Shown one piece after another: positions 3,232-27,848 of a DNA stretch of 64,000 nucleotides. The position numbers and the translations under genes are program-made. The notes below the pieces were generated by a model, which was not told where the DNA came from, ran no database searches, and saw only the letters and a list, made by a program, of their open reading frames with translations. Numbering within the stretch: the stretch's first letter is position 1; each line of letters starts with the position of its first letter. This stretch comes from Halpernia frigidisoli (lineage in GTDB: Bacteria > Bacteroidota > Bacteroidia > Flavobacteriales > Weeksellaceae): NCBI RefSeq assembly GCF_900113805.1, contig NZ_FOQT01000002.1, forward strand, positions 496,001 through 560,000. Direction: 5' to 3'.

Positions 3232-3347
3232 TAGAAGCAACAAGATTTTCGCTTCTTTGAAGATTGTACCCGCTTTCCATTACAATCTTTTTTGCGCTCG
3301 CTTTCGCTCGCGCAAAAAAGGATTTCCATTTCAATCGGGGCTAGAAG
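3232..3347. repeat. Dispersed palindromic repeat, family A copy 1
   Basis: One of six copies in the window. The outer ends are tagaagcaacaagatttt and the inverse of tagccccgattga; the inner stem is attacaatctttttt/aaaaaaggatttccatt. The centre here is gcgctcgctttcgctcgcgc, itself a palindrome. It lies after the FdhF/YdeP gene and before the leader of the 2OG-dioxygenase gene. It may act as a bidirectional terminator for the oxidoreductase operon, but this is inference. Confidence 0.85.
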
Positions 3348-3428
3348 TTCTTTTATTTTTATTGCCCGACTAGAAGAAGAGTAATTTCTTGAATTATGGT
3401 TTTTACAATTTTATCGAATTCCTTTTTC

Positions 3429-3436
3429 TATATTTG
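3429..3436 (+). promoter_or_regulatory. Bacteroidetes-type -7 box (TATATTTG) before the 2OG/HEPN pair
   Basis: TATATTTG fits the Bacteroidetes TAnnTTTG -7 consensus and lies 104 bases before the ATG at 3540. The same box with a similar downstream leader occurs at 8445-8452. A clear -33 TTTG is not obvious. The roughly 100-base leader contains a small hairpin (cacgtatttgcgtgg) and the conserved stretch tagttttgccatacatatata. Confidence 0.5.
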
Positions 3437-3539
3437 GTTGGATATAAAGTATTTCGATATTCATAAAAACCATCACGTATTTGCGTGGTTATATATAGTT
3501 TTGCCATACATATATAAAATTTGGCAGTAATTAAAAAAA

Positions 3540-4139
3540 ATGACAGAACTTAAAATAGATAATGAAGATGATTTTTTAAAGCTTGCTTGTGAATTAGGCA
3601 GGCCAATATCTTCAAGAATTAATGGAAGTTTGATTGATAATTTGATTCCATTAAAAAAAGAAAATGCTCATAAACAATCTTTATCTGCAAATTTTGGTAC
3701 TAGTGATTTTCCTTATCATACTGATGGTGCATATTTTAAAATTCCACCAAAATTTATCTTATTAAGATACACTAATGGAATTTCAAAGCCAACACCAACA
3801 ATATTATGTAATTTACAAAACATAAATTCTTTTGATAAACAAATACTAAAACATTCCGTTTGGAAAGTTAAATCAAAAGATTCATCATTTTATTCATCAA
3901 TATTATCAGAGGATGAAAAAATTTTTAGATTTGATAATTGTATAATGCAACCTATTGATATGAAAAATGATAACTCTACACATTTAGAAAAATTGATTTC
4001 CTCACTGCCTAAAAAAATAATAAATTGGGAAATTAATAAAACAGTAATTATTGATAATTGGAAATATTTACATACAAGACCAGAGGTTAAAGACAATGAA
4101 ATTGATTTTAGAAACATTCAAAGAATTATGATACAATGA
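3540..4139 (+). CDS. TauD/TfdA-like Fe(II)/2-oxoglutarate dioxygenase
   Basis: A 199-residue protein with the metal-binding facial triad of TauD/TfdA-type dioxygenases: His60 and Asp62 in FPYHTDGAYF, and the distal His178 in NWKYLHTRP. Arg191 or Arg195 near the C-terminus is suitable for binding 2-oxoglutarate. It lacks the long N-terminal part of classical TauD, so it is a compact member. The substrate cannot be read from sequence. It overlaps the next gene by four bases (ATGA), implying translational coupling with the HEPN-like/zinc-ribbon protein. Very low GC and the flanking repeats suggest an accessory, horizontally acquired cassette. Hydroxylation of a small molecule, nucleoside or partner protein is possible. 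Confidence 0.7.
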   Translation: MTELKIDNEDDFLKLACELGRPISSRINGSLIDNLIPLKKENAHKQSLSANFGTSDFPYHTDGAYFKIPPKFILLRYTNGISKPTPTILCNLQNINSFDKQILKHSVWKVKSKDSSFYSSILSEDEKIFRFDNCIMQPIDMKNDNSTHLEKLISSLPKKIINWEINKTVIIDNWKYLHTRPEVKDNEIDFRNIQRIMIQ

Positions 4140-5065
4140 GTTTTGATAGCGCTTGGACTTACGAAAAATTATGGTTAAAAGCTAAAGTTTATATAAGCAA
4201 AGCACTTTCAGAAGACAGAGAAAGTGAAATGTTTCCTTTTTTTTCAGCAATTGCACTTGAATTTATTGCAAGAGCAACTTTAGCAAAAGTTCATCCTGTT
4301 TTACTAGCTGACCCAAGAGAAGGAGAAAATATCCTTTATGTTTTTGGCTTCCAAAAAAAGCCATTATATATTCCTATTTCTGTTCCAACCAAAACAGTTT
4401 TAGAAAGATGTGAAGTGATTGTTCCAAATTTTACAGAAAATGAAAAAACATTTTGTAAAGAAATAACTATCAAGCGAAATGAAGAACTTCATAGTGGAAA
4501 TTTAGGATTCGATAATTTCCCCACAAAAATATGGCTTTCAAAATACTATAAAACTTTAAAAATATTATTAGAATTTCAAGAAAAAACACTGTTGGATTTT
4601 TTAGGAAGTGATGAAGCAGATGCAGCTGAAGAAATGATTGCCGAGAGAGAAGCAAATCTCGAAAAAACTATAAAAGATAGGATTTCAAGACACAAAAAGA
4701 GTTTCAAGGCCCTTTCTATTGAAATACAAACTGAAAAAATTTCAAATTCAGAAAGAGACAAATGGTTTGGAAGTCGAGTATATAGAAAAGATGAGATTTG
4801 TCCTTCTTGTGGAAATAATGGTATATTAACAGGTAAACTAATTTCGATTTCAGAAGGTAAAGCAAGTGATTCTGATATTACCCAAAACTTAAATATTTTA
4901 CCAACCTATTTTATTTGTTTATGTTGTGATTTGCAACTTACAAACCACCAAGAATTAGACTCAATTGAACTTGGTGGCCAATATAAAATTGAGGAAATAT
5001 TTGACCCAAGAGAATATTTTGAAATTGAAAATATTGAACCAGATTTTGACTATGGAAATGACTAA
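4136..5065 (+). CDS. HEPN-like protein with C-terminal zinc ribbon
   Basis: I do not recognise a named family for this 309-residue protein. Residues 1-150 are helical and carry an R-x4-H motif, Arg114-NEEL-His119 (IKRNEELHSG), which matches the active-site signature of HEPN ribonucleases. A charged helix follows (about 160-195). A zinc-ribbon-like region has CPSC at 222-225 and CLCC at 261-264. The start codon overlaps the dioxygenase stop, and the two genes form a two-gene unit. The gene ends just before an inverted-repeat element at 5073. HEPN domains are common RNases in toxin-antitoxin and phage-defence systems, so a defence role is reasonable but unproven. It could instead be a regulatory or DNA-binding protein whose R-x4-H is coincidental. 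Confidence 0.55.
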   Translation: MSFDSAWTYEKLWLKAKVYISKALSEDRESEMFPFFSAIALEFIARATLAKVHPVLLADPREGENILYVFGFQKKPLYIPISVPTKTVLERCEVIVPNFTENEKTFCKEITIKRNEELHSGNLGFDNFPTKIWLSKYYKTLKILLEFQEKTLLDFLGSDEADAAEEMIAEREANLEKTIKDRISRHKKSFKALSIEIQTEKISNSERDKWFGSRVYRKDEICPSCGNNGILTGKLISISEGKASDSDITQNLNILPTYFICLCCDLQLTNHQELDSIELGGQYKIEEIFDPREYFEIENIEPDFDYGND

Positions 5066-5072
5066 AATAACT

Positions 5073-5102
5073 ATTGCCAACAGCGGTTTTGCGAGATTGC
5101 GA
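5073..5102 (+). repeat. attC-like arm at the end of the 2OG/HEPN cassette
   Basis: The segment ttgccaacagcggttttgcg follows the HEPN-like gene's stop by only a few bases. The same left-arm type (ccgctagcagcggttttgc) follows the gene ending at 10479, and gctgctaacgtgggtttggc follows the gene ending at 11538. The partner arm is not visible here, perhaps lost to the palindromic repeat inserted at 5180. The left border of this cassette may be aatttggcagtaa at 3519-3531. Confidence 0.5.
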
Positions 5103-5179
5103 AATATGTGAAAAATTCAAGTTTTTCTTTCGCAAGAAATTTTATCTTAACAGAATAATCTCTGTTCCGAAGTTCACCC

Positions 5180-5259: not shown

Positions 5260-5330
5260 AAATGCAAATATTTCACTTTATTTTTAACATACTTTTCGTC
5301 CCTTCGAAAAAAAACAATAAACCTTCTTTT

Positions 5331-5475
5331 TAGCCCGGATTGGACGAAAATCCTTTTTTGTTATTGCGATTATAAAAATGTTCAACGGATTGCTTCGTAC
5401 CTCGCAATGACAAAAAAGATTGTAGGGAAAGCCGGACTTAATTTCAAACAAAAAAAAACTTTTTCTTGCTTCTAA
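5331..5475. repeat. Dispersed palindromic repeat, family A copy 2
   Basis: Inverse orientation relative to copy 1: it begins tagcccggattgg and ends cttgcttcta. The centre holds a different palindrome, ttattgcgat...cctcgcaatgac, which is the third repeat type also found at 8129-8203. This shows that the centre is interchangeable or is an insertion point. Together with the family C copy it fills the space between the HEPN-like gene and the convergent DUF2207 gene. Confidence 0.85.
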
Positions 5476-8219: not shown

Positions 8220-8363
8220 TAGAAGCAACAAGATTTTCGCTTCTTTGAAGATGGTACCCGCTTTCTACTATATCTTTTTTGTCATTGCGAGGAACGAAGC
8301 AATCCGTTGAAAATGATCGCAATCGCAATAACAAAAAAGGATGCCGTTTCAATCGGGGCTAAA
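8220..8363. repeat. Dispersed palindromic repeat, family A copy 3
   Basis: Same outer ends and orientation as copy 1 (tagaagcaacaagattttcg... to caatcggggcta). The centre is longer and contains gtcattgcgaggaacgaagc followed by gatcgcaatcgcaataac. It is followed by a segment (8385-8535) similar to that after copy 1, including a TATATTTG box. Confidence 0.85.
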
Positions 8364-8444
8364 AGTTTGGGTATTTTTCGTTCGAAAGGAAGAATAGTAA
8401 TTTCAAATTACGGTATTCCGTAATTATTATTCAATTCAATTTTC

Positions 8445-9720: not shown

Positions 9721-10479
9721 ATGGATAAAACTCAAGGAAAAGAACTATTAGAAATTAAAAACATAATATTGAAACAATTCGGTCAGTCAGAATGGTTAGA
9801 ATTGGGATTTTATTTAGGATGTAATGATATAATTGAAAATCATCCTCGATTATTGAGAAGTTTAAGTTTTGGAGATGAAGATTATGAGGGAAATGTTTTA
9901 ACTGTATTGGACGAAATAATAAAACTTGACACCAATAATTTTAAAGAGATAAAGATTTATCTTTCTGAAAAATTTTCTAATCCACAAGTTTCTGAATATA
10001 TTTCAACAGCACATACTGAAGTGCCTAAAAAAATGATGACATTTTCTCCTCAAGTTTTTAGTATTCCTACTAAATCTCAAAATGATAAATTAGTTACAGT
10101 TATGCTACCATTTTCTCAACAAGGAACATTTAACGCTGTAAAAAATGCTTGTGACAATTTAGGTTTAGAATGCAAAAAAGCAGATGATATTTGGGAAAAC
10201 ACTACATTTATTCAAGATATTTTTGAGCTTATTTTTACTTCTAAAGTAATGATTGCTGATTTTACAGGAAAAAATCCAAATGTATTTTATGAAGTTGGAA
10301 TTGCTCATACTTTGGGAAAAACTGTAATACCAATTACTCAATCCATTAATGATATTCCTTCAGATTTGAAACATCACAGAGCATTAGTATATCATCCAAT
10401 CGAACAAGGCTATAAAGAACTGACCAACGAAATTGATAAACGCTTAAGAACTCTATTTCCTGAAAAAGAACTTTGGTAA
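9721..10479 (+). CDS. Death-like/EAD-type N-domain with nucleoside 2-deoxyribosyltransferase-like effector domain
   Basis: A 252-residue soluble protein of two parts. Residues 8-90 form a helical module (SEWLELGFYLGCNDIIENHP...) that resembles the small death-like effector-associated domains of bacterial conflict systems. This match is by pattern only. Residues 123-246 resemble the nucleoside 2-deoxyribosyltransferase/TIR-like fold: VTVMLPFS at 125-132, then Asp180 in MIADFTGKNPNVFYEVGIAH, with Asn185/Asn187 and Glu191 in the positions expected for catalysis. Relatives hydrolyse nucleosides or act on nucleotide cofactors such as NAD. It stands alone between two attC-like repeats, so it is probably a mobile single-gene cassette. 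A defence role is inferred. Confidence 0.65.
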   Translation: MDKTQGKELLEIKNIILKQFGQSEWLELGFYLGCNDIIENHPRLLRSLSFGDEDYEGNVLTVLDEIIKLDTNNFKEIKIYLSEKFSNPQVSEYISTAHTEVPKKMMTFSPQVFSIPTKSQNDKLVTVMLPFSQQGTFNAVKNACDNLGLECKKADDIWENTTFIQDIFELIFTSKVMIADFTGKNPNVFYEVGIAHTLGKTVIPITQSINDIPSDLKHHRALVYHPIEQGYKELTNEIDKRLRTLFPEKELW

Positions 10480-11800: not shown

Positions 11801-11870
11801 AAAATATAATATTCGCAATTTATTTTAACCGCATTTTTCGTCCCTTCAAAAATAAAATTACCCATCTATT

Positions 11871-11978
11871 TAGCCCGGATTGAAGCGGCATCCTTTTTCT
11901 TTTTTTTACAAAAAAGAAAAAGATATAGCGGAAAGCCGGTACCAATTTGAAACAGAAAAATCTTGGTCTTGCTTCTAA
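11871..11978. repeat. Dispersed palindromic repeat, family A copy 4
   Basis: Begins tagcccggattgaagcggca and ends tcttggtcttgcttcta. The centre is a run-rich palindrome (ctttttcttttttttacaaa/aaaagaaaaag) rather than a GC-rich one. It ends 30 bases before the aminotransferase ATG, so that gene's promoter must lie within or upstream of the element. Confidence 0.85.
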
Positions 11979-19293: not shown

Positions 19294-19406
19294 TTAGAAG
19301 CAACAAATTTTCGCTTTTTCCGAAGATTGTTCCCGCTTTCCATTACAATCTTTTTTACGGTCGCTTCGCTCGCGTAAAAAAAGGATTTCCATTTCAATCG
19401 GGGCTA
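19294..19406. repeat. Dispersed palindromic repeat, family A copy 5
   Basis: Same orientation as copy 1: ttagaagcaacaaattttcg to caatcggggcta. The centre is acggtcgcttcgctcgcgt. It lies 26 bases after lnt and could serve as its terminator. Confidence 0.85.
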
Positions 19407-19480
19407 TTTTTCAAAAGTTTTTTTTCTTTCGAAACGTTATTGTAAGGAATTAAACTATTGCAATTTAAGTAAGTGTGTTT

Positions 19481-27474: not shown

Positions 27475-27737
27475 TTTGTGGTGATGAATTTAGGTCAAAG
27501 TTAGGGAAACTATCTTGGGTAATTATAGAGTTATCTGATTAATAAAAGGTTAATTGTATTTACATTATCTATTTTGATTTGGTTTTAATTTATTGCAAAT
27601 TTTAATTTTTGAACGCAGAGTGCACAGAGATTTATATTTCATGATGACAATTTGAGGTTCGCAGAGGCGTTTCACTTTGCTGAGTTTTTGAAAAAAATGT
27701 TGAAAATCTTTTGAAAACAAAAAAAGAAATGAACTTC

Positions 27738-27848
27738 TAGCCCCGATTGAAGCGGCATCCTTTTTTGGCGCGAGCGAAGCGAGCGCCAAAAAAGATAGAG
27801 CGGAAAGCGGGACGGGTCTTCGGAAAAAGCGAAAATTTTCTTGCTTCA
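27738..27848. repeat. Dispersed palindromic repeat, family A copy 6
   Basis: Begins tagccccgattgaagcggca and ends attttcttgcttcaa, the inverse orientation of copy 1. The centre is ggcgcgagcgaagcgagcgcc, a perfect-looking GC-rich palindrome between tttttt and aaaaaa. It fills the space between the minus-strand desaturase and the plus-strand ribosomal operon. Confidence 0.85.

Follow-up and report, generated by a model that had tools for sequence, protein, structure and literature searches.

Gene pair and flanking elements

The window, a 64,000-nucleotide stretch of the Halpernia frigidisoli genome (G000; contig C3, positions 496,001 to 560,000), holds two overlapping genes on the plus strand. 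The first (3540–4139) encodes a compact TauD-like Fe(II)/2-oxoglutarate (2OG) oxygenase of 199 amino acids, and the second (4136–5065) a HEPN/zinc-ribbon protein of 309 amino acids whose start codon lies inside the oxygenase stop codon (ATGA). These coordinates and the overlap had been given by an earlier, sequence-only reading of the same DNA, and they are correct. Chance open reading frames were rejected given an 82% identical homolog and 96 relatives. The homolog is in Chryseobacterium sp. FH1, where the 82% identity at the protein level is accompanied by 80% DNA identity that spans 3531–5061, with nothing outside it.

The pair is preceded by an AT-rich leader of ~150 bp (3387–3539, plus strand), presumed from its position to contain the promoter. 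The sequence-only reading had called this leader promoter-like, which is not borne out by its 15 consensus promoter matches versus 10.6 ± 3.0 expected by chance. The repeat that it had seen upstream does exist: it is one of the ordinary, dispersed Flavo-1 RNA elements (RF01705), located at 3262–3346 on the minus strand. Six of these elements occur in the 64 kb (3262–3346, 5328–5442, 8250–8364, 11868–11946, 19325–19409, and 27735–27818), and they account for most of the dispersed intergenic repeats around the gene pair. On the downstream side, the segment at 5066–5178 (plus strand) is an attC-like recombination-site remnant that retains the 5′ arm TGCCAACAGCGGTTTTGC and the center; the 3′ arm is missing.

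A compact oxygenase related to amino acid hydroxylases

The HxD...H metal triad had been read from the sequence as His60, Asp62, and His178 (codons 3717–3719, 3723–3725, and 4071–4073, plus strand), and this numbering holds in an alignment of 61 oxygenases of the family: His60 and His178 occur in 61/61 and Asp62 in 60/61. Arg180 and Arg191 are likewise present in all 61. The protein thus combines the two hallmarks of the TauD/TfdA group, an HxD...H triad and a 2OG-binding Arg in a double-stranded beta-helix, and it matches Pfam TauD with E = 1.7e-5 (score 25.3, just under the cut-off of 27).

When searched singly against PDB sequences, the oxygenase gave chance matches only. A profile built from the 61 relatives matched clavaminate synthase (E = 1.6e-15), as well as L-lysine 3-hydroxylase and AsnO. 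With the model of a relative, the top Foldseek match of the oxygenase part was AsnO with its product (2og7, E = 4.4e-11), with IsnB, BBOX1, and KDO1 close behind; ranked by sequence profile, clavaminate synthase comes ahead of AsnO. The oxygenase is a compact member of the amino acid hydroxylase side of the TauD superfamily. It has the TauD fold and the HxD...H and Arg ligands in common with AsnO, clavaminate synthase, and the lysine and arginine hydroxylases, but is smaller (~200–230 amino acids vs. ~270–390 for the TauD-fold PDB matches). It is also always encoded beside a HEPN gene and not in a biosynthetic cluster.

A HEPN domain joined to a zinc ribbon

Conservation in the downstream protein was assessed in 66 sequences, which is what is left of 96 (the window copy included) after removal of those more than 85% identical. 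The sequence-only reading had singled out Arg114 and His119 as an R-x4-H motif and Cys222, Cys225, Cys261, and Cys264 as two Cys pairs. All six residues are correctly numbered and present in 66/66 proteins, as is Asn115; conservation of Arg114 and His119 was a condition that the sequence-only reading had set for its own proposal. Glu42 is also found in all 66, and position 46 is Arg in 51 and Lys in 15.

An AlphaFold2 model of the protein, built with 61 sequences (the alignment contained no plasmid-derived rows), has a pLDDT of 91.9. Residues 1–157 (4136–4606, plus strand) make up the HEPN domain, with helices at 9–25, 32–52, 101–120, and 130–147 and an insert (54–95) between helices 2 and 3. 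A long helical linker follows (residues 158–216; 4607–4783, plus strand; helices 158–191 and 195–208), and then a zinc-ribbon-like beta domain (residues 217–289; 4784–5002, plus strand), defined by the four Cys and by modeled strands at 217–221, 228–238, 248–261, and 283–289.

The HEPN superfamily has a helical core whose third helix ends with an R-x4-6-H motif, the Arg being followed by a polar residue (N, D, or H); many families also have an E-x3-[KR] motif in helix 2, which provides a second conserved acidic residue (PMC3710099). Each of these traits is found here: E42-x3-R46 is in helix 2, R114-N-E-E-L-H119 is at the end of helix 3, Asn follows the Arg, and 130–147 forms helix 4. The predicted topology is that of a HEPN fold, the outcome on which the sequence-only reading had made its proposal depend, and the best Foldseek matches of this part in the PDB (ranks 1–3 and 5) are toxins of HEPN-MNT pairs (8xeh_B, 8xdj_C, and 6m6u_H), with TMt 0.43–0.47, probability 0.69–0.82, and E-values of 0.36–0.68 that are not significant alone. 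Searched against the PDB by sequence, the profile of the HEPN protein gave chance matches only and no HEPN match, and searches of Pfam, NCBIfam, PADLOC, and PHROGs returned no family for it, only weak zinc-ribbon and chance matches. Because motif, motif position, and Foldseek rank all agree, we regard the assignment of residues 1–157 to HEPN, made from sequence and model, as firm despite the weak E-values. Metal-independent RNase activity is a trait of the superfamily (PMC3710099), and the protein is referred to below as a putative RNase.

A near-invariant Asn at the C terminus

At its C terminus the HEPN protein has a flexible acidic stretch closed by Asn-Asp/Glu (e.g., DYGND, EFNNE, QFSND, EYDNE, and DDNNER). 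In the window this tail (5045–5062, plus strand) ends in DYGND, with Asn308 and acidic residue 309. The Asn is present in 64/66 aligned proteins, nearly the conservation of the catalytic residues, and the last residue is Asp or Glu in 63/66. The pattern N[DE]x0-3-end occurs in 92 of the 96 proteins, versus 10% of shuffled tails. Column entropy is 2.9–3.75 bits at positions −25 to −6 and drops over the last five positions; anchoring the rows on the Asn gives 0 there, a value that the anchoring itself forces, unlike the alignment count (64/66). The distance between the last Cys pair and the tail motif varies from 35 to 64 residues, and the tail has a pLDDT of ~52 in the AlphaFold2 model.

A short conserved motif that closes a variable, disordered linker is what would be expected of a modification or recognition site, and Asn308-acid309 is thus a candidate substrate or recognition site. 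AsnO beta-hydroxylates asparagine. Given that the nearest fold to the partner is an asparagine hydroxylase, hydroxylation of the tail Asn by the oxygenase would be the most economical hypothesis; the idea that the tail is a substrate draws on two things, conservation and the similarity to AsnO.

A diverged copy on the Agrobacterium tumefaciens plasmid pAt (L122) has the tail YQDE, in which Asp replaces Asn. Its oxygenase is unannotated, yet an open reading frame with HTD and LHGR is present; the neighbors are tyrosine recombinase, phospholipase D-like, and AAA genes.

Obligate pairing and co-inheritance

In a screen of 149 relatives, homologs of either protein were found in the same two genomes only, adjacent and in the same order. 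A wider collection was then seeded with the HEPN protein and drawn from plasmids (47 records), species genomes in GTDB (80 of 159 relatives kept), and viral contigs (7, all from IMG/VR). In 96/96 copies the HEPN gene directly follows an oxygenase gene of this one family, in the same orientation, so the adjacency of homologs, on which the sequence-only reading had also staked its proposal, is without exception; the most common spacing is the 4-nt overlap (52 of the 95 copies outside the window). By record title, the copies come from Bacteroidota, alpha-, beta-, and gammaproteobacteria, Actinomycetota, Bacillota (Paenibacillus and Ornithinibacillus), Verrucomicrobiota, Planctomycetota, Acidobacteriota, and Desulfobacterota, about eight bacterial phyla overall. 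Neither protein was found in phage records, and a viral fold library gave no significant match.

Since the HEPN protein had served as the seed of this collection, the test was also made in reverse, starting from the oxygenase. Among 395 Bacteroidota genomes, the HEPN profile is matched in five and the oxygenase profile exceeds 100 bits in the same five, all other oxygenase matches being below 50 bits. Among plasmids, the HEPN protein was detected in 46 records and the oxygenase in 43, all of them among those 46; the three records that lack an oxygenase match (Acinetobacter and two Streptomyces) have more diverged copies. The distance matrices of the two families are correlated (r = 0.81, a value reached in 0/2000 permutations).

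At several loci both genes are in one frame, parted by a stop codon and a few bases only. For one of these, from Algoriphagus (L039), the stop was read as Gly and the fusion was modeled as a single chain with paired and unpaired rows. The model has a pLDDT of 91.4 and a pTM of 0.83, subject to the caveat that the artificial linker is short. Well-folded parts without a defined mutual orientation (212 + 321 residues) could hardly exceed a pTM of ~0.6, and a specific contact between oxygenase and HEPN protein is therefore predicted. This fusion model does not put the tail into the active site of the oxygenase (tail pLDDT <50).

Cassette-like context in Bacteroidota

The sequence-only reading had ended the unit at an attC-like arm, and the case for that arm has become stronger: the segment at 5066–5178 is a 3′-truncated copy of a palindromic element of ~130 bp that has at least five more copies in the same genome (C3:12014, C3:13348, C2:2966, C5:422551, and C11:2780), with 79–91% identity. 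In this genome the palindrome TGCYAACAGCGGTTTGC...GCAAACCGCTGTTRGCA is found in array-like order after single genes or gene pairs. A complete copy from another locus (L160) folds as a long hairpin, with z-scores of −4.0 and −4.6 on the two strands.

The element also lies directly after the pair in another genus (L004, 1851–1987), where the pair itself is only ~31% identical. There the pair is framed on both sides, on the left by ...GTTAGCACCAATT-ATG and on the right, after the stop codon, by a complete ~130-bp palindrome. The left edge of the pair is the same at L107, and in both of these genomes the start codon is ~9 bp after ...GTTAGCA. The window copy has the element downstream only, ending at 5178; upstream of this pair, nothing is recognizable as an attC-like element.

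Judged by these sequence boundaries, the pair appears to behave as a cassette in Bacteroidota. In L004 it sits between attC-like palindromes, as integron gene cassettes sit between attC sites, but the core heptamer is TGCYAAC/GTTRGCA, as compared with the usual RYYYAAC/GTTRRRY of integrons, and no integron integrase over the TIGR02249 cut-off was found in the H. frigidisoli genome. An intact integron was rejected on this last ground. The attC-like arrays are possibly an unusual Bacteroidota cassette system.

Mobility and defense neighborhood

Of the 46 plasmids with the pair, 32 are predicted to be conjugative. The sequence-only reading had proposed to look for defense genes nearby, and PADLOC models indicate that the neighborhood is indeed rich in them. 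First neighbors match 283 models over 113 proteins and second neighbors 384 over 107, many with E-values below 1e-80; 80 genomic control proteins match 11 models, the best at 3e-27 (two Flavobacteriia only). With redundant models and a narrow control, this is an enrichment of defense genes beside the pair and not a rate. The neighbors include Gabija (L014), AbiV and AbiH (L013), type I restriction-modification (L074), a match to a long-Argonaute model, SIR2-like genes (L125, and L003 by sequence inspection), and the candidate systems PDC-S06 and PDC-M46B (L036 and L043). Recurrent transporter or pathway genes were not found beside the pair.

Larger arrangements were also seen. A gene for a TrlF-family AAA-like ATPase lies beside the pair on Pseudomonas, Agrobacterium, and Paracoccus plasmids (L123, L126, and L127), joined by a GIY-YIG nuclease gene in L126 and L127 but not in L123, as a recurrent larger cluster. 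In Paenibacillus (L071, 3747–5210) a TniQ-like gene adjoins the pair, which suggests that the pair there is cargo of a Tn7-like element. In the window itself, 4.7 kb from the pair, lies what is likely another abortive-infection gene (9721–10479); its product combines AbiJ N-terminal domain 5 (Pfam E = 6.8e-34) with a C-terminal part that weakly resembles nucleoside deoxyribosyltransferases.

Relation to known HEPN systems

HEPN RNases are among the most common effectors of bacterial immune systems and of toxin-antitoxin modules, and to our knowledge their known modifying partners are nucleotidyltransferases. The closest parallel is the type VII HEPN-MNT (HepT/MntA) module, which is likewise a two-gene unit that combines an R-x4-H HEPN RNase with a small partner enzyme, and whose toxins (8xeh, 8xdj, and 6m6u) match the HEPN part best in structure. 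In HEPN-MNT the toxin is neutralized by its partner, which adds three AMPs to the Tyr of RX4HXY (PMC7641770). That acceptor (R-x4-H-x-Y) is missing from our family, in which H119 is mostly followed by S/T-G and position H+2 is Gly in 63/66, and an AMPylation-target Tyr of the HepT kind was rejected as absent. Moreover, the HEPN-MNT partner is a nucleotidyltransferase (GSx10DxD) and not a TauD-like 2OG oxygenase. The missing Tyr and the oxygenase partner together set the pair apart from HEPN-MNT. It also differs in that the gene for the modifying enzyme comes first, and in that its HEPN protein is 309 amino acids long, with a helical linker, a zinc ribbon, and a conserved tail.

The HEPN abortive-infection proteins (AbiF/AbiD, AbiV, AbiJ, PrrC, RloC, Swt1, DUF4145, etc.) have the Rx4-6H and Ex3[KR] motifs and a defense-island setting in common with this family, and some of them have zinc ribbons (PMC3710099). 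The same HEPN survey describes no dioxygenase-linked family, and the words “dioxygenase,” “oxygenase,” and “hydroxylase” are absent from its main text (PMC3710099). PADLOC-DB 2.0 (2023) has no match for either protein at E ≤ 10, and mostly open-access full-text literature yielded no pairing of HEPN with a TauD-type or other 2OG oxygenase in toxin or defense contexts. The suggestion that this two-gene module was undescribed therefore stands for the libraries and open literature searched. In kind, the pair would be a HEPN-based toxin or defense module; its control chemistry would be categorically new if the hypothesis set out below holds.

Proposed mechanism and alternatives

The sequence-only reading had suggested a defense or toxin module whose oxygenase modifies the RNase, its target, or a signal; to this hypothesis the analysis adds a defense-rich neighborhood and a candidate site of modification, the penultimate Asn. 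The reading that we favor, tentatively and at somewhat less than an even chance, is a type-VII-like toxin-antitoxin (or abortive-infection) module whose RNase would be inhibited through hydroxylation by the oxygenase. The module would be horizontally mobile and obligately two-gene, with a HEPN endoribonuclease carrying a zinc ribbon as its effector, encoded downstream. The dedicated oxygenase, encoded upstream, would bind this RNase and hydroxylate it, most plausibly at the near-invariant penultimate Asn of the flexible tail. Hydroxylation would keep the RNase off, which would be type-VII-like logic with oxidation in place of HEPN-MNT AMPylation. If phage infection or loss of the plasmid or cassette removed the oxygenase, its cofactors (2OG, Fe(II), and O2), or the binding, the RNase would be freed and would stop growth. 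There is a precedent for a HEPN toxin that is neutralized by a modifying partner enzyme (PMC7641770). The reading also has in its favor the constant pairing and co-inheritance, the self-contained block of similarity to Chryseobacterium sp. FH1, the HEPN hallmarks, the intact catalytic residues of the oxygenase and its likeness to amino acid hydroxylases, the predicted contact, the tail Asn, and the defense neighbors. Counting against it are the unplaced tail in the fusion model, the weak Foldseek E-values for HEPN, the lack of a HEPN match in the PDB by sequence, and the small lead of AsnO over other TauD-fold enzymes, itself reversed in the sequence profile. The more specific proposal, a new class of toxin-antitoxin or abortive-infection system in which hydroxylation of the C-terminal Asn couples RNase release to oxygen, iron, and 2OG status, is possible, though less likely than not.

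Damaged copies bear on the polarity. The HEPN gene is intact and the oxygenase reading frame broken in L016 (a plasmid, N-terminal frameshift), L021 (a MAG, in-frame TGA), and L085 (a draft, C-terminal frameshift). The reverse, a broken HEPN gene with the oxygenase family still there, is seen in L111, L124 (where the oxygenase also lacks its N terminus), and L128, and L018 has an active-site change in the HEPN protein (R114Q). The third of these patterns has its counterpart on a sister plasmid: of two Bradyrhizobium plasmids, L018 (7974–8933) has the Arg-to-Gln change with an intact oxygenase, and L016 (7474–8936) has the intact HEPN protein with the N-terminally damaged oxygenase. An intact HEPN gene beside a damaged oxygenase disfavors a strictly lethal toxin, unless the damage reflects sequencing errors or working remnants. 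The damaged copies, few and partly from drafts, argue mildly against strict toxin-antitoxin.

Damage to either gene with the other intact is what would be expected if activity needs both, and together with the defense-rich neighborhood it speaks for the opposite polarity, in which hydroxylation matures or arms the HEPN RNase, or in which the oxygenase acts as a sensor of infection or of metabolic state (2OG, O2, or iron) that switches the RNase on. This would be a two-component abortive-infection system without an antitoxin, and we think it somewhat unlikely: the damaged reading frames are few and partly from draft or metagenome assemblies, and the oxygenase-first order, the ATGA coupling, and the life of a small mobile cassette resemble antitoxin-first toxin-antitoxin modules. 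The oxygenase might instead hydroxylate an RNA base, a tRNA, or a small-molecule signal, the HEPN/zinc-ribbon protein cutting RNA according to the mark and the tail serving only as a docking peptide or degron. 2OG oxygenases that act on nucleic acids do exist, RNA binding would suit a zinc ribbon, and conservation of the tail does not require that it be a substrate. However, the oxygenase resembles amino acid side-chain hydroxylases and not AlkB-type nucleic acid enzymes, and the two proteins are predicted to touch directly in the fusion model, so that we consider this reading decidedly unlikely.

The predicted interface would also fit an oxygenase fold that merely binds and blocks the RNase, its catalysis being irrelevant. 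Binding alone would need none of the Fe(II) and 2OG ligands, which are practically invariant over about eight phyla, and we give this explanation very little weight. Even less probable, in our judgment, is an ordinary metabolic operon for TauD-like substrate oxidation with a regulatory HEPN-like protein. Characterized members of the Pfam TauD family are indeed mostly metabolic, but the pair is patchily present (5/395 genomes), travels on plasmids and in cassettes, has defense genes as neighbors, and keeps its catalytic RNase residues invariant; with no recurrent transporter or pathway genes linked to it, this alternative was considered and rejected.

The conserved Asn-Asp/Glu tail gives a prediction at the level of a single residue, in a pair that is small and compact. 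With an obligate oxygenase partner, carried across about eight phyla on plasmids and in cassettes, oxidative protein modification would join the chemistries by which bacteria control themselves, and toxin release would be tied to metabolic state; protein hydroxylation would then be a bacterial immune or addiction switch.
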